A stretch of DNA of 64,000 nt, taken from Natronospira proteinivora. Its GTDB lineage: Bacteria; Pseudomonadota; Gammaproteobacteria; Natronospirales; Natronospiraceae. The notes below the pieces were generated by a model. It searched no databases and was not told where the DNA came from. It worked only from the letters and a program-made list of their open reading frames with translations. The DNA lies in NCBI RefSeq assembly GCF_024170465.1, contig NZ_JALJYF010000003.1, positions 62,001 to 126,000 on the forward strand. Direction: 5' to 3'. Positions 1 through 5,589 of the stretch are shown piece by piece; the stretch's first letter is position 1, and every line of letters begins with the position of its first letter. A program made the translations under genes and the position numbers.

Positions 1-108
1 CTTGCCAAAATCGAAGCTGTCTTGGAGCAAGCCGTTGCCAGTTGCAAAGATCGCAAGCCTTATGAGGGATGCCCCATCATAGAGAGCCTGATCGAAGAAA
101 AGAATTGA
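1..108 (+). CDS. merR: MerR-family mercury regulator, C-terminal end (partial)
   Basis: This is the last 35 codons of a gene that enters from the left edge; the stop is the TGA at 106-108. The fragment has cysteines at residues 15 and 24 in the arrangement C-x8-C followed by PIIESL. That spacing matches the two C-terminal Hg(II)-ligand cysteines of classical MerR (C117 and C126 in the Tn501 protein), where the second is followed by PLIASL. The family forms a dimer that binds between the -35 and -10 elements and untwists the promoter when metal binds. Exactly such an operator follows immediately. The DNA-binding half is outside the window, so the Hg assignment rests on these cysteines, the operator and the neighbours. 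Confidence 0.8.
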   Translation, partial: LAKIEAVLEQAVASCKDRKPYEGCPIIESLIEEKN

Positions 109-136
109 CGCCGTACTTAGGTACGGGATTTACACT
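105..136 (+). promoter_or_regulatory. MerR-type promoter/operator
   Basis: A -35 element TTGACG (105-110) overlaps the merR stop. A 20-bp spacer then carries the dyad CCGTAC-TTAG-GTACGG (111-126), followed by a -10 element TACACT (131-136). Over-long 19-20 bp spacers with a central dyad are the hallmark of MerR-controlled promoters, and CCGTAC-N4-GTACGG is the half-site of the classical mer operator. It would drive the two downstream genes in response to metal. Unlike the classical divergent mer layout, the regulator lies upstream in the same orientation. Confidence 0.85.
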
Positions 137-167
137 GACCGTGTCTTAATAGTCAAGGTCTCATGCC

Positions 168-551
168 ATGAAAGAATCCCTTCTAAGTTTTGGTGGTGTC
201 GGAAGTAGTGTGTCAGCGGTAGCCGCTGCGGCTCCTTGCTGCCTTCCGTTTCTTGCTTCCGTTGCCAGCACAGTCGGTTTATCTGCTTTACTGCCTTACT
301 CCGAGCACATTGCGTACATCGTGCAAATATTCGGCCTGCTGGCAGTTTTCGGCGCGTTTCTGTCATTTCGGAAACATGGCAAGTACGGGCCATTAGCCTT
401 AACCGTAGTGTGCTTTGGTGCATTGGTGGTTGTTTACAACATTTCGCTACTGGGATGGCTACTGTACTCTGCGCTGGTTGGGCTGATGGTTGCTGCCATT
501 TGGAACACTTTGGAAGCTAGGAGGTGTAATCAATGCGTAGCACAGGCATAG
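168..551 (+). CDS. MerT/MerC-like mercuric ion transporter
   Basis: A 127-residue hydrophobic protein with about four membrane segments. The adjacent cysteine pair C24-C25 in the first segment (APCCLPF) is the metal-accepting pair of MerT, MerC and MerF type inner-membrane Hg(II) importers. A second pair C-x2-C lies at residues 120-123 at the extreme C terminus. The start ATG follows the MerR operator by about 30 bp, so the gene should be metal-induced. Its end overlaps the next gene by 19 bp. No periplasmic MerP and no reductase MerA are visible downstream. The size is nearer to MerC/MerT than to MerF, but which subfamily it belongs to cannot be settled by eye. Confidence 0.75.
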   Translation: MKESLLSFGGVGSSVSAVAAAAPCCLPFLASVASTVGLSALLPYSEHIAYIVQIFGLLAVFGAFLSFRKHGKYGPLALTVVCFGALVVVYNISLLGWLLYSALVGLMVAAIWNTLEARRCNQCVAQA

Positions 552-748
552 TGCTTCAATCGGAAATCACATGCCCCCACTGTGGTCATCAAAAAACAGA
601 AACCATGCCAACTGACGCATGCCAATATTTCTATGACTGCGAGTCCTGCAAAAGGGTCCTAAAACCAAATGCGGGAGATTGTTGTGTTTTTTGTAGCTTT
701 GGTACGATTAAATGCCCTCCAATACAGGAAGGCAAGTGTTGCGAGTAA
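533..748 (+). CDS. Small GDCCVFCS-motif cysteine-rich protein
   Basis: A 71-residue protein with an N-terminal C-x2-C pair (CPHCG, residues about 14-18), a middle C-x2-C pair (CESC) and the motif GDCCVFCSFGTIKCPPIQ. This motif defines a small family commonly encoded beside merR/merT-like genes; its biochemical role is not established, though metal or thiol binding is likely. AGGAGG at 519-524 lies 8 nt before the ATG and inside the end of the transporter gene, so the two are translationally linked. The stop is followed within 10 bp by an attC-like site. Confidence 0.8.
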   Translation: MRSTGIVLQSEITCPHCGHQKTETMPTDACQYFYDCESCKRVLKPNAGDCCVFCSFGTIKCPPIQEGKCCE

Positions 749-752
749 TGGC

Positions 753-839
753 ATCTAACAATTGCATGGAGTGGGACGCACTTTTCGCTACGCCCTTCGG
801 GCTCCGCTACAACTGCGCCCCTCATGCAAGGCGTTATAT
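753..839 (+). other. attC-like recombination site 1
   Basis: The left arm starts with TCTAAC (754-759) and TTGCATGGAGTGGGACGCA; the right arm is TGCGCCCCTCATGCAAG followed by GCGTTAT at about 831-837. The arms pair imperfectly with extra bases on one side, as attC sites do, and enclose a second inner hairpin (CGCCCTTCGGGCTCC region). The crossover would fall after G833. Confidence 0.75.
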
Positions 840-861
840 CGTGTTCACCGAATGAGGATAA

Positions 862-2037
862 GTGGGGATGCTTTACTACCGATACAGACCGCCATCGGAG
901 CTAAGCTTCAAGGAGTTGCTGTATAGCGAACTGTACTTCTCATCCGCTGCAGAGTGTAACGACCCATTCGATGGCGCCGCATTCTACAAATTCTCTGTAG
1001 ATTACGATCGGTGGCGCAGGCTTTTCACGTGGGCGCTCGGGGACCTTTCAGCGCAGGAACCTTCAGTGGCTGACGCTCTTGCAAAACAGATGTGTTCCAT
1101 CGGCGAGCTAACATTTGATGAAGCAGCCGAACTTGACTACCGCGAAATGCTTAGATCGTGCGCTGGCATCGACAATCCTATTTTTCAAATAGCAATGGCG
1201 GAGTGTATTTATCGGGCGTACGAGACTTACAAGCCAGAAGAACATTATTTCGTCTCATTCGCTAGAGTTCCGGATGAACCTCTTCTTTGGTCCCACTACG
1301 CGGGGCGTCACGAAGGATTCTGCTTAGTATTTCGGAGCATTCAGTCGTCGATTTGGCAGTACCAAGAGACCTTGAAGCGATCTATCGCCAGAAAAACGCC
1401 GAGAAGCTTCTCGCCGAACATGAGTCAGGGGCTTCCGAAACGTTTTCCGATCCGTGATATCACTTATGAAGAAGAGCCCAACTACTTAAATGCATTCTAT
1501 CGGTTTGCGGAGTCCGTCGCCAATGTAGACTTTTCAGAGCAAGAGCGTCGCGATCTCGCTTCCGAGCAACAAAAACACTATTTCACCAAGAGTCGTTCGT
1601 GGGCGTATGAGTGCGAATCTCGTATCGCGCTACGCTCCCCAGCGTCGTGGCTTTTCGGAGAACGCGTCGAATATTCACGCCAAGAGAGGTTGTTCCGTTT
1701 TGAGCCGTCTCAATTAGTGGGCGTAATCCTGGGTGCGCGTGCGTCCGACGAAACAAGGACGCGAGTTCTGGAGATCGTAGCAGAACGAAGAGATGAATTG
1801 AGTGCGAGTCGAGACTACAAAAGGACAATTTTTGATTGCCTTGTGCAGCAGGCTGAACTATCTACGCGGGGCCGGCAAATAGTCGTTAAACCCACTCACA
1901 TATTTGGTCTAGGTGATTGCCTCGAACCTGAAAATAATGGGTTTGAACAACGGTTGAGCGATTGGCAGAAAGGATGCGGATTGGAGTTCGACGGAACGAG
2001 GGGCGCGAGAAAGGTCTTTGCAGAAGATCTTGACTGA
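862..2037 (+). CDS. Cassette A: DUF2971-family protein
   Basis: A 391-residue soluble protein. The N-terminal LYYRYRPPSE and the ECNDPFDG stretch (about residues 31-38), followed by LLWSHYAGRHEGFCLVF (about 140-157), are characteristic of DUF2971. This family has no established biochemistry but recurs in mobile islands and gene cassettes. The start may be GTG at 862 or ATG at 868; GAGG at 854-857 can serve either. The gene fills its cassette almost completely and ends directly before attC site 2. Codon use is more A/T-rich than in the core genes, which agrees with acquisition. A role in phage defence is conceivable from context only. Confidence 0.75.
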   Translation: MGMLYYRYRPPSELSFKELLYSELYFSSAAECNDPFDGAAFYKFSVDYDRWRRLFTWALGDLSAQEPSVADALAKQMCSIGELTFDEAAELDYREMLRSCAGIDNPIFQIAMAECIYRAYETYKPEEHYFVSFARVPDEPLLWSHYAGRHEGFCLVFRSIQSSIWQYQETLKRSIARKTPRSFSPNMSQGLPKRFPIRDITYEEEPNYLNAFYRFAESVANVDFSEQERRDLASEQQKHYFTKSRSWAYECESRIALRSPASWLFGERVEYSRQERLFRFEPSQLVGVILGARASDETRTRVLEIVAERRDELSASRDYKRTIFDCLVQQAELSTRGRQIVVKPTHIFGLGDCLEPENNGFEQRLSDWQKGCGLEFDGTRGARKVFAEDLD

Positions 2038-2040
2038 TAT

Positions 2041-2097
2041 AACTAAACGCTTGAGGTGACGCTCGCGAGCTTGCGCACCTCAGCTTGCTGTTAGCTT
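2041..2097 (+). other. attC-like recombination site 2
   Basis: A short (about 57 bp) site: AACTAAACGC and TTGAGGTG on the left pair with CACCTCA and GCTTGCTGTTAGCTT on the right, around a GCTCGCGAGC palindrome. The R-prime-like box is GTTAGCT at 2090-2096. It is less canonical than sites 1 and 3 but lies exactly between two cassette genes. Confidence 0.6.
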
Positions 2098-2114
2098 CAA
2101 ATGTTGGAAATCCG

Positions 2115-2945
2115 ATGACAGATCAAACGAAGGAAGAATTGCCTGAACTGAGCGATCAGGAGATCAAAGATTTCCTGGAATCTGCTCCGCTGTATGCGCG
2201 GAGGCGCTATGGGTTGCCTACGGTCAATCGAACAAGCTTACACATTCAGCAGATTGATGATCACTGTGATGTTTGTGGAGAACGCCGGCCATTTGGAGAT
2301 ATTCGGCCCAAGGGAGGGGGTTCCGGTATGGCAGTCCCTCGGCTTGATACTGGCAGGTCATATTTCGAGTTCACCTGCTTGACGTGTCGGCGTGCCTCTA
2401 GACGGTACTACGTCGTCCAATTCGTCACTGATGAACACGTAGATATTGAAAAGGCAGGCCAGTACCCCAGGCCTAGGCTTCCCAGGAATCGGCATGTTCA
2501 ACGATTTATGGCGGATGACGCTGCGAATTATGAGAAGGCAATTGCATGCCTAGCTAATGCCTACGGAATCGGAGCGTTTGCGTACTATCGTCGATTGGTT
2601 GAGGACAATATAGGGAGATTGCTGGAATTGGTTCGGGAAGACGCAGCTGCGTCATCTTCCGGAACCGAAACCCTCGCAGCACTGGAACAGCTGGGTACGA
2701 ATTGCCCAATGGCTGAGAAAATAAAGATCGCGAACGATGCCGTTCCAGCTCATCTAAAACCAGATGGATTGAATCCCCTTGGCCGCTTGTATGGGGCCTT
2801 GAGCGAGGGAATCCACAGCCTTTCGGAGGAGCAGTGCCTCAACCAGGCAAGGCTAATTGATCAGTGCTTGGCGTTCTTGCTGGCTGAGTTGGCTGATCGC
2901 AAAAAGCACCGAGAAGAGTTTAAGCGATCCGTCGGTGGTTTATGA
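2115..2945 (+). CDS. Cassette B: zinc-ribbon protein with helical C-terminal domain
   Basis: A 276-residue protein read from ATG 2115; an in-frame TTG at 2085 lies inside attC site 2 and is unlikely to be the start. Residues about 45-52 (CDVCGERR) and about 85-90 (CLTCRR) give two C-x2-C pairs, a likely structural zinc ribbon. The C-terminal half (about 125-260) is helical, with FAYYRRLVEDNI and a later GALSEGIHSLSEEQCL. This resembles the DUF4145/HEPN-like helical domains seen in nucleic-acid-targeting accessory proteins. I do not recognise a named family for the full length. The stop falls 2 bp before attC site 3, as expected for a compact cassette. Confidence 0.65.
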   Translation: MTDQTKEELPELSDQEIKDFLESAPLYARRRYGLPTVNRTSLHIQQIDDHCDVCGERRPFGDIRPKGGGSGMAVPRLDTGRSYFEFTCLTCRRASRRYYVVQFVTDEHVDIEKAGQYPRPRLPRNRHVQRFMADDAANYEKAIACLANAYGIGAFAYYRRLVEDNIGRLLELVREDAAASSSGTETLAALEQLGTNCPMAEKIKIANDAVPAHLKPDGLNPLGRLYGALSEGIHSLSEEQCLNQARLIDQCLAFLLAELADRKKHREEFKRSVGGL

Positions 2946-2946
2946 A

Positions 2947-3024
2947 GCTAACAATCGGCTGCACGGCGACCGATTTTTCGCCGCCTTCGCGGCTTCAAAC
3001 CGGCGCGTGAGCCGGGCGTTAGGC
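2947..3024 (+). other. attC-like recombination site 3
   Basis: The best attC of the array: GCTAACAA (2947-2954) at the left and GCGTTAGGC (3016-3024) at the right match the R-double-prime and R-prime consensus. Inner arms CGGCTGCACGGCG and CCGGCGCGTGAGCCG pair with mismatches. The crossover would be between G3018 and T3019. Confidence 0.88.
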
Positions 3025-3046
3025 AAAAAAGGTTGGGAGAGATCTT

Positions 3047-4765
3047 TTGCTACAAATATCGTCTGGAAAACTCTTCCAAAGAGACGTGGGGTATGAAAAT
3101 CACCTCCGGGGGGTCATTTACACCAATCTAAAATTTTTCAGAGATGCAAAGATCGAAACTAGCGCAGGGTCTCTTCTTCCAACATCTAATTTACGAAAAT
3201 CCCTTGCTTTGGTGTATGAGTTTACTGAGCTTGTCGAGTCTCAGGGAAATGGTCCGGGGATTTTGGTATCACATGGTATCGATCCATATCTATCCGATTT
3301 CTCCGTTGTATTGTCTTTTGCTCTCAATTGCATCGCAACGCCCGATCATGAGCTTACAAATAGATTAATAGGCGGGCAGAGTGGCCCGTCTACCCCTTAT
3401 CCGCCAAATTTGTTAGTAAAAAGGGTCTTTGATAAGGAAATAGCTTGCAAGCAAGCTGAAGAGGCATATTTGATCGATTTTACAAACCAGCTTATTGGCT
3501 TAGAAAGGAAAACATTCTTAAGCGTAATGCGAGCAATTAGAACGTACGTAACCGGCATGCATAGGGTTGCTGATGACCTGGAGCTTGCATATACATTAAT
3601 GGTTGCAGCTGTTGAATCTCTTGCCCAAGACTTTGATCGGCATGAAGCTACTTGGGGAGACGTGGACGCAAAGAGGCGAACGCGCGTAGATCGAGCTTTA
3701 TCCCAAGCAAGTGACGAAACTGCCGAAGGTGTGCGGAATGCAATTTTAGCGACAGAGCAGACTTCGCTGGCGCGCAGGTTTCGTGAATTTATATTGAATC
3801 ATCTTGCTCCATCTTTCTTCAGGGAAGAAGCAATAGACGCGGAGAGACCTGTTGCGAAAAAAGATCTGGAAAGGGCGTTAAAGCAGGCCTACCGTGCTCG
3901 TTCCCAATACATACACACACTTCAAGAGCTTCCTAGGATTCTTACTGATGGAGCATCGTTCTCTGAGACCTGTAGAGTTGATAGAAAGACATGGCTTACT
4001 CTGCAAGGCCTTTCCCGGGTAGCTAGACATGCGATCATGGAATTCATATATCGGCAGCCCACAACAGACAAGCAAATTTACGATTACAGTTTGGAGAGGG
4101 CTGGTATAGTGCAAGCCCCGTTGGCGCCCCAATACTGGGTTGGCAACACTAAGGGACTGAATAGAAATTCAGGGCCTATGAAGCTTGAAGGCTTTTTGTC
4201 TCAACTGGGCTCCCATCTTCTGAATGAATCAAATTCTACAATTACGGATCTTACACCTGTCCTCGAGGAATCAGAAAAATTGGTTCCCAGTATAAAAGAG
4301 GCAGAGCGCAGGCCTTTTGTCGCTCTATATGTTTTGTTCAATGGGCTTCTCCCAGAAGATAAAAGAATGTCAGGATTTAAAGAATTCAAAGACAGGTATC
4401 AGGCTGAGTTATCCGCTCCCAGTCCCGAAGCCCTCTTCGTTCATCTTCTATATTCATCGGTTCCAGAATGGAACTTGGACGCTCATGAGAACTCGGTGAA
4501 CCGTTACTTTGAGAGTAGAGAAAACAAGTGTGGATTTCGGGCCCCTAGGGTTCTGGAGGCAGGTATTTGCTTAGAGCTGGCTGAGCGTTATCGCGCAAAA
4601 GGAAATATTGGAAAAGCCAGAGAGCTTGTTGAAATGGCAATAGAAAACTACCCAGAGCACAATGGGCTTCGTGATTCGGAAAACGTCCTAGTATCAGGTG
4701 ACGAAAAGATAGCGTGGAGTGATGTTCTGCTGCCAAATAGCGACGAACTCGAGGGCGATGCCTAA
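3047..4765 (+). CDS. Cassette C: large protein with HEPN-like middle and TPR-like end
   Basis: A 572-residue protein. TTG 3047 is taken as the start because GGGAGAG at about 3035-3041 sits at ribosome-binding distance and no ATG is close; a GTG at 3092 is the alternative. Residues about 175-300 contain YTLMVAAVESLA and YRARSQYIHTLQELP, the pattern of Apea/HEPN-like helical domains, where an R-x4-H-like motif often carries RNase activity. The motif here is not a clean R-x4-6-H, so activity is unproven. Residues about 500-540 (ELAERYRAKGNIGKARELVEMAIENYP) look like a TPR hairpin. The TAA is formed by the CCTAACA of attC site 4. Function unknown; low G+C. Confidence 0.65.
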   Translation: MLQISSGKLFQRDVGYENHLRGVIYTNLKFFRDAKIETSAGSLLPTSNLRKSLALVYEFTELVESQGNGPGILVSHGIDPYLSDFSVVLSFALNCIATPDHELTNRLIGGQSGPSTPYPPNLLVKRVFDKEIACKQAEEAYLIDFTNQLIGLERKTFLSVMRAIRTYVTGMHRVADDLELAYTLMVAAVESLAQDFDRHEATWGDVDAKRRTRVDRALSQASDETAEGVRNAILATEQTSLARRFREFILNHLAPSFFREEAIDAERPVAKKDLERALKQAYRARSQYIHTLQELPRILTDGASFSETCRVDRKTWLTLQGLSRVARHAIMEFIYRQPTTDKQIYDYSLERAGIVQAPLAPQYWVGNTKGLNRNSGPMKLEGFLSQLGSHLLNESNSTITDLTPVLEESEKLVPSIKEAERRPFVALYVLFNGLLPEDKRMSGFKEFKDRYQAELSAPSPEALFVHLLYSSVPEWNLDAHENSVNRYFESRENKCGFRAPRVLEAGICLELAERYRAKGNIGKARELVEMAIENYPEHNGLRDSENVLVSGDEKIAWSDVLLPNSDELEGDA

Positions 4766-4834
4766 CAAGGCCGTCAACGCGGACGCATTCTCCGCTCGCT
4801 CTGCTCGCTACAAATGCGCCGGTTACGGCTGGCG
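4760..4834 (+). other. attC-like site 4, ending at the crossover base
   Basis: The left arm GCCTAACAAGGCCGTCAACG pairs with the right arm CGGTTACGGCTGGCG. The usual R-prime continuation GTTAGGC is absent: after the crossover G (4834) the sequence continues ATGCGCC, which belongs to the downstream esterase. The site is therefore an attC half joined to non-integron DNA. Confidence 0.75.
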
Positions 4835-5589
4835 ATGCGCCGCTAGACTATCTCCCTGCCCTGAGCGGTGATTACTTCAAGTATGAATCGGATGCACTCG
4901 GCCGCAGTTTCCATATCTATGTAAGGCTTCCCGAATCCTACGGCGAAGGGGATGGTGAGTATCCGGTGGTATATGTGCTGGACGGGGACTCGCTTTTCCC
5001 GATCCTGGCGGCCAATCAGCTCTTTCTGGAATACGATGAAGACCTGCCCGAGGTGATTGTGCTGGGCATTGCCTACGGCAGCTTTGACCCATCTGTGAAC
5101 AAGCGGGGTTACGATTTCTCCGCCCCTGCGGGCGATGCTGAGGAGGGGCAGGGCGGTGCGCCGGCCTTTCATGAATTTCTCGAGTCTGAGCTGATGCCTG
5201 AGGTGGAAGGGCGTTATCGGGATGATTCCTCGCGTTCCATCCTCTTCGGCCAAAGTCGGGGCGGGTACATGGTGCTTTATTCGGCTTTTACGGCGCTGGA
5301 CCTGTTCTGGGGCCGGATTGCCAGTAATCCCTCCTTTGATCCGGGGCGTGAGCGGTTTTTCTCCGAGCCGGCGGCCGCGGCCAGGGACGACCTGGGTCTG
5401 GTAGTGACAAGCGGCTCCCGAGATTTCCCTCGACTTCGGGAGGCAGCGCTGGATTGGTTCAAGGCTTGGGAAGGGGCTGAGAAGGCACCCTGGGATATTC
5501 ATCCGGTCACCATCGATGGCGGCACCCATGCGGCGGATAGCCCCAATAGCTACCGGGAAGGCATGCTCTGGCTCTTTGGACGGGAGTAG
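4835..5589 (+). pseudogene. Exported esterase, start and signal peptide lost at the cassette junction
   Basis: The reading frame is open from before the attC and has recognisable esterase-family sequence from about 4849 (YLPALSGDYFKYESDALG) to the stop at 5587. It resembles the PF00756-type alpha/beta-hydrolases (S-formylglutathione hydrolase/IroE-like): YPVVYVLDGD strand, nucleophile elbow GQSRGG (about 5251-5268) and a late GGTHAADS histidine. No ATG, GTG or TTG occurs in frame between the attC and the GTG at 4966. Starting there would remove the first strands and leave no export signal. The lost part probably encoded a signal peptide of about 20 residues. It is likely non-functional unless translated from a cassette start, and was probably separated from its 5-prime end by cassette insertion. 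Confidence 0.7.

Follow-up and report, generated by a model that had tools for sequence, protein, structure and literature searches.

The locus described here lies in the 2.93-Mb, four-contig genome of Natronospira proteinivora. The window, that is, the whole stretch of 64,000 nucleotides that was analysed, corresponds to positions 62001-126000 of contig C3 (NZ_JALJYF010000003.1), and the segment to its left, C3:42001-62000, is referred to as L004 (contig position = L004 position + 42000). The left edge of the window cuts through a seven-cassette chromosomal integron array, which has its own attI site and no adjacent integrase gene. A preliminary description, made from the window alone, had placed four attC sites and three single-gene cassettes at 753-4834, next to a metal-resistance set. 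These sites and cassettes are borne out by the cassette limits, by the complementarity of each site to the start of its own cassette and by hairpin folding. However, the implied extent was too small: the array starts about 2.9 kb to the left of the window, at L004:17137 (attI, L004:17092-17137), and runs to window position 4834, so that 753-4834 holds only its right portion, three cassettes in 834-4834 being preceded by four in the left part. The metal-resistance set is not a neighbour of the array but one of its cassettes (merR, merC and GDCCVxC), tandemly duplicated.

From left to right, the array consists of attI, an exo/endonuclease-phosphatase-like gene, a gene for a bacterial PH protein, two mer cassettes, a DUF2971 gene, a zinc-ribbon/HEPN-like gene and a HEPN-TPR gene, and it is followed by an esterase remnant (Table 1). 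The GC content of the cassettes is 46-52%, against 62-64% in the flanks. Cassettes 5-7 contain one gene each, and no partner antitoxin is present in them. Integron arrays are an already known kind of element (PMC12409362); what is new here is the members of the array and its split arrangement.

Table 1. Cassettes, genes and sites of the array (window positions unless L004 is given)
Feature	Position	Strand	Details
Cassette 1	L004:17138-17972		endonuclease/exonuclease/phosphatase family, Pfam 48.9 bits
Cassette 2	L004:17973-18565		bacterial PH domain, Pfam 57.3 bits
Cassette 3	L004:18566-19699		mer cassette, 1134 bp, first tandem copy
Cassette 4	L004:19700 to window 833 (window part 1..833)	+	mer cassette, 1134 bp, second tandem copy
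merR end, second copy	106-108		stop codon
mer-type promoter/operator	105..136	+	TTGACG; dyad CCGTAC-N4-GTACGG at 111-126; TTACAC/TACACT, 19-20 bp spacer; dyad also in first copy
merC-like transporter gene	168..551	+	127 aa; Pfam MerC 32.3 bits, cut-off 27.6
GDCCVxC small cysteine-rich protein gene	533..748	+	71 aa; NF041374 107.5 bits, cut-off 40
attC of mer cassette 4	749..833	+	crossover G 833
Cassette 5	834..2090	+	DUF2971; start TTATATCG complementary to R'' GATATAAC
DUF2971 protein gene	868..2037	+	389 aa (391 from GTG 862)
attC of cassette 5	2035..2090	+	short; crossover G 2090
Cassette 6	2091..3018	+	zinc-ribbon/HEPN-like gene; start TTAGCTTCA complementary to R'' TGAAGCTAAC
Zinc-ribbon + HEPN-like protein gene	2115..2945	+	276 aa; ATG 2115
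attC of cassette 6	2943..3018	+	crossover G 3018
Cassette 7	3019..4834	+	last of the array; HEPN-TPR gene; start TTAGGCA complementary to R'' TGCCTAAC
HEPN + TPR protein gene	3047..4765	+	572 aa; TTG start
Hybrid attC of cassette 7	4759..4834	+	intact to crossover G 4834, then ATGC, not TTRRRY
5'-truncated esterase gene	4835..5589	+	joined to array end; Pfam Esterase 100.7 bits; no start codon or signal peptide

How can the attC sites be recognized? In an integrated array, whatever follows the G of an attC is already part of the next cassette, and therefore each R'' was compared with the start of its own cassette. A strict scan pairing R'' with the R' that follows it missed most of the sites, since those bases are the next cassette's. 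The complementarity to the own start extends over 9, 9, 11, 6, 9, 10 and 8 nucleotides in cassettes 1-7, the pairing in cassette 4 being halted by a single internal mismatch and that in cassette 5 counting one G-T pair; R'' of the second window site, which had been assigned differently, was corrected to GATATAAC, around 2035-2043. In a 7 × 7 comparison scored over six positions beyond AAC/GTT, own pairs match at 39 of 42 positions and foreign pairs at a mean of 2.7 of 6, and only two of the 5040 permutations reach 39, namely the true pairing and the one in which the twin mer cassettes are swapped. Folding of the bottom strands, a check that had been proposed earlier, yielded hairpins at all four window sites (z = -4.5, -2.2, -2.9 and -1.6 for those beginning at 749, 2035, 2943 and 4759) as well as at the three sites left of the window (z = -3.3, -6.1 and -4.2), and the circular form of every complete site likewise folds as attC. 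An Rfam search of the window matched no family.

Relatives of the sites were searched for by DNA identity only and played no part in finding them. The attC of the first mer copy, near-identical to 749-833, shows 83% identity to the 71 nucleotides right after blaVIM-7 in the class 1 integron of pMATVIM-7 (L161 3501-3571). That of cassette 6 shows 91.5% identity to a site after a cupin cassette in class 1 integrons; in pYKCS045 this is the first cassette behind IntI1, and in pNDTH9845 it lies between qnrVC1 and arr-2. The left part of the cassette 7 site is 88% identical to an unannotated Pseudoalteromonas site; for the cassette 5 site, no DNA relative was found in the same searches. The variable centres of the relatives' sites are poorly aligned in a MAFFT alignment.

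The cassettes of greatest interest are the last ones. Apart from weak TPR matches, the 572-aa protein of cassette 7 could be assigned to no family in Pfam, NCBIfam, PHROG or PADLOC, and sequence searches against known structures gave no HEPN match. A genome scan found homologs at 30 loci in bacteria and archaea (Bradyrhizobium to Paenibacillus, and archaeal metagenome-assembled genomes), and the MLQI start, E190, W203, Y282, R285, S286 and H290 are invariant in 25 of the 25 aligned. R285 and H290 form an R-S-x3-H sequence that fits the HEPN RNase motif Rx4-6H, and the AlphaFold2 model (mean predicted local distance difference test score, pLDDT, 85.7) is helical in the motif region. Most HEPN proteins that have Rx4-6H act as RNases in conflict systems, and fusions to TPR or a zinc ribbon occur among them (PMC3710099). 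Homologs occur at 22 viral or prophage loci, where genes for tails and baseplates are found nearby, as is an Hdf-like antirestriction family. On an Acinetobacter plasmid a homolog lies beside a GajA/GajB-like (Gabija-like) pair, and Bradyrhizobium plasmids have homologs near AbiEi/AbiEii and next to TrlF, the latter with CBASS and AbiV in the vicinity; PADLOC matches among the neighbours comprise GajA/GajB, TRIP13, type IIG/PglX-like, AriA, viperin and PDC-S28. The 572-aa protein most likely senses infection and cleaves RNA through its HEPN site: the N-terminal and TPR parts would be the sensor, R285/H290 would form the cleavage site, and RNA cleavage would stop growth or kill the infected cell before phage release.

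The protein of cassette 6 is 276 aa long when read from ATG 2115, the TTG at 2085 falling outside the cassette. Zinc-ribbon cysteines, YxRRxxxE and SxxxH are conserved in the family alignment, and the protein matches phrog_25239 (E 8.8e-48). A conserved Rx4-6H is absent: in the 33 sequences, SxxxH has no conserved preceding arginine, and catalysis is not claimed because this RNase arginine is absent. In its model (pLDDT 86.2), the C-terminal bundle has HEPN structures among its best fold matches. A scan of viral contigs with the single sequence found nothing, whereas the alignment-based scan found 51 loci with relatives. In an induced Rhizobium phage a homolog stands alone on the opposite strand beside a capsid gene, on a Leptospira plasmid one lies about 2 kb from a Shedu gene, and another was seen next to a superinfection-exclusion B gene. 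The probable mode of action of the 276-aa protein is through its zinc ribbon and HEPN-like domain; a nucleic-acid-binding zinc ribbon would act together with a joined HEPN-like domain that lacks the classical RNase motif.

The DUF2971 protein of cassette 5 (Pfam PF11185, 37.9 bits against a gathering score of 22) matches the PADLOC candidate model PDC-S31 (E 2.5e-25) and phrog_1762 (E 9e-35); no close homologs were found in plasmids, phages, viral contigs or 369 class genomes. It is the weaker candidate for phage defence, and the claim is the weakest of the three because its sole support is the similarity to PADLOC candidate models. In total, at least two of the three window cassette genes are probably phage-defence genes, because these little-studied families also travel on prophages, plasmids and defence islands. 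The defence role suggested in the preliminary description is supported in part: for the 572-aa protein, with its invariant HEPN motif and its prophage and defence-island contexts, for the 276-aa protein, with its prophage and plasmid contexts and putative HEPN-like fold, and more weakly for the DUF2971 protein. As a separate observation, a DUF2971 gene is located 6.7 kb downstream of a 572-aa homolog on a Paenibacillus plasmid (L048 15465-15662), so that members of the cassette 5 and cassette 7 families are again found close together.

Each mer cassette carries merR, merC and a GDCCVxC gene, with the operator CCGTAC-N4-GTACGG between merR and merC. Cassettes 3 and 4 are identical at 1048 of 1143 columns (about 92% DNA identity), and their merR products are alike at 123 of 130 positions, the stop being counted. 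As the differences between the copies are mostly synonymous (51 synonymous and 21 non-synonymous codons; 20/8, 19/11 and 12/2), both copies are judged to have been under selection. There is no merA in the mer cassette, and no gene in the genome exceeds the curated MerA cut-off; a MerA-like match at C1:372840 (388 bits) falls below it and was not called. The set is accordingly predicted to provide regulation and uptake and no reductase. The promoter of the second copy is directed toward cassettes 5-7, and read-through into them is a guess. A generic sigma-70 scan of positions 1-5000 gave fewer promoter-like matches than shuffled sequences; we claim only the mer operator, and neither a cassette promoter (Pc) nor any other internal one.

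Where, then, is the integrase? The preliminary description had proposed a search to the left of the window for intI and attI, of which only attI was found. Three tyrosine recombinases of the searched family are present in the genome and one of them, at C1:559112-560230, is an integron integrase (TIGR02249, 403.9 bits); this genome-wide search found no intI adjoining the C3 array. The array therefore has an attI without being a complete integron, in which intI stands next to attI; with at least two attC sites and no nearby intI it falls among the clusters of attC sites lacking integron integrases (CALINs). Its attI is identical at 53 of 54 bases to the attI beside the C1 integrase gene, and the 33-base attI core has exactly two exact copies genome-wide. 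The TTGACT -35 element of the integrase promoter is retained on both contigs, at 103 bp (C1) and 106 bp (C3) from the core; the DNA between this element and the core does not align between the contigs above shuffled controls. A LexA-type box, CTGTATGGATATACAG, lies upstream of the C1 gene and is missing on C3. The C3 locus would be an integron that has lost its intI, and the near-identical attI suggests that the remaining IntI may still act on the array in trans, as CALINs in general are mobilisable in trans by a functional IntI (PMC12444791).

Downstream of the C1 integrase gene with its LexA-type box and attI (L010 7110-8300, C1:559 kb), the cassettes look largely decayed, except for a good attC at L010:13027-13104 behind an AAA/OLD-like ATPase gene. 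Two relatives in the genus have intI-attI integrons whose attI sequences, near-identical between both species, are other than those of this genome; they carry two (L029) and five (L030) well-formed cassettes. Neither relative has an array beside lnt. Since gene content right of lnt differs among the three genus species (C3; L036, L037), this spot is judged to be a site of repeated insertion or rearrangement. Several copies of the intergenic repeats GTAGGAGCGAATTCATTCGCGA and GTGGGAGCGGCGTCCGCCGCGAT, which have the look of repetitive extragenic palindromic (REP) elements, lie between lptE and lnt (L004 14580-15130).

The right end of the array deserves separate attention. The fourth site of the preliminary description is an attC up to its crossover G, but G|ATGC replaces G|TT, which makes it a hybrid; after G 4834 the sequence runs ATGCGCCGCTAGAC. 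The crossover point separates the first base of R' from the second (PMC12901181). The esterase frame that begins there has its first in-frame start only at GTG 4966, within the conserved region, and the closest esterase homolog found has a signal peptide in the corresponding N-terminal part. Judged from these features, the esterase gene is headless and its breakpoint is the IntI cut base. IntI would have recombined the last attC with a G|AT site within the esterase gene, whose start would thereby have been lost; such attC × G|AT recombination would account for both the headless esterase and the position of the breakpoint. It is also possible that the right end is a deletion that ended there by chance.

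Taken together, we favour, with a probability of roughly 60%, the reading that this is a seven-cassette array with an attI, a lost intI and an IntI-made right end, the last two cassettes of which are stand-alone phage-defence genes. At the level of the array, one could instead see chance inverted repeats among genes of a plain acquired operon, as the weak folding of the short site and the hybrid site might hint; such a view has practically no chance, refuted as it is by the own-start complementarity found in every cassette (2/5040 permutations) and by the likeness of three sites to cassette-end sites in other records. A more serious proposal is that no separate integron ever existed here: ordinary recombination would have brought a copy of an attI segment with cassettes from the C1 integron to the lnt region, and the right border would be where an accidental deletion ended. 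The shared attI core and the variability beside lnt are in line with it. Nevertheless, a recent copy would be expected to align between the -35 element and the core, which is not the case, and the border falls exactly at the IntI cut base, so that we consider it improbable.

As for function, the array may be real and cassettes 5-7 may serve something other than defence: a stress response, other RNA metabolism, or an addiction of the toxin-antitoxin kind by which the array is stabilised. Toxin-antitoxin cassettes are frequent in large integrons, and no defence context was seen here for the DUF2971 gene. Not all proteins with HEPN domains serve in defence, and the architectures that contain DUF4145-like domains are varied (PMC3710099). 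On the other hand, each of these cassettes is a single gene with no partner antitoxin, and homologs of cassettes 6 and 7 turn up repeatedly on prophages and plasmids, in several cases right beside known defence genes; we regard a non-defence role as unlikely, if still to be reckoned with. Several points do weigh against the favoured reading. The defence and RNase roles are predicted from genomic association and sequence, and the integrase-loss and attC × G|AT steps have a sequence basis alone. The neighbour counts come without a matched control set, and no enrichment is claimed. In PADLOC the DUF2971 protein matches candidate models only, and for the 572-aa and 276-aa proteins there is no model in PADLOC, Pfam or NCBIfam. 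Comparison of the 572-aa model with PDB folds matched the TPR part only, and hence its HEPN assignment rests on the motif and the helical context. The HEPN Z-scores of the 276-aa model are modest (7.5 for 2q00 and 7.3 for 1wwp, both HEPN proteins, 6.9 for RnlA and 5.4 for the sacsin HEPN) and are mixed with those of unrelated helical bundles. Neither of the two genus relatives has the esterase, and both differ in what lies beside lnt. Finally, cassettes distant from attI are often silent, and cassettes 5-7, which begin 3.7 to 5.9 kb from it, may be silent.

A bolder version would be that the 572-aa protein is the founding member of an undescribed family of single-gene HEPN abortive-infection systems that travels with prophages, in defence islands of plasmids and as a cassette of integrons, and that the array is a split integron, the function of its attI being maintained by an integrase located elsewhere in the chromosome; this is offered tentatively, as falling somewhat short of an even chance. 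Integron cassettes as stores of defence genes have been documented mainly in Vibrio and in mobile integrons, and this locus adds candidates from a different chromosome, two of them from families that have sharply conserved residues and lack a curated name in Pfam or NCBIfam. The two attC sites resembling those of clinical class 1 integron cassettes link the array to the pool on which mobile integrons draw. With two attI sites, the genome is a natural setting in which to ask whether a single integrase serves both, and the array end may be the fossil of a recombination between an attC and a gene.

How does the locus compare with known systems? Like the mer operons of Tn21 and Tn501, the mer cassettes have a MerR with three cysteines, the operator dyad CCGTAC-N4-GTACGG and MerC; unlike in those operons, merR lies co-directionally upstream of merC, merA is missing and the whole is packed as an integron cassette. 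The array shares with CALINs (e.g., in Xanthomonas; PMC12444791) an attC array with no neighbouring intI, but differs in having kept at its left end an attI that matches that of the one IntI gene of the genome at 53 of 54 positions. The 572-aa protein resembles HEPN RNases with Rx4-6H (the LA2681 type fused to TPR, ApeA and RnlA; PMC3710099) in its R-x4-H within a helix, its helical domain and its C-terminal TPR, whereas it has no Pfam HEPN match at E up to 1, an MLQI N-terminal region of its own and no antitoxin partner. The 276-aa protein has the N-terminal zinc-ribbon cysteines and, putatively, the C-terminal HEPN-like bundle of DUF4145-like HEPN proteins with a zinc ribbon (PMC3710099), but lacks a Pfam DUF4145 match and R-x4-6-H and has instead the invariant YxRRxxxE and SxxxH. 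Known chromosomal integrons carry anti-phage cassettes, as cited in PMC12409362 (Darracq 2025; Getz 2025; for mobile integrons, Kieffer 2025). In common with the sedentary integrons of Vibrio cholerae and V. parahaemolyticus, as these are presented there, the locus is a chromosomal array with compact single-gene candidates of unknown function; different are its seven cassettes only, its other bacterial group, its non-adjacent integrase and a defence role read from sequence.

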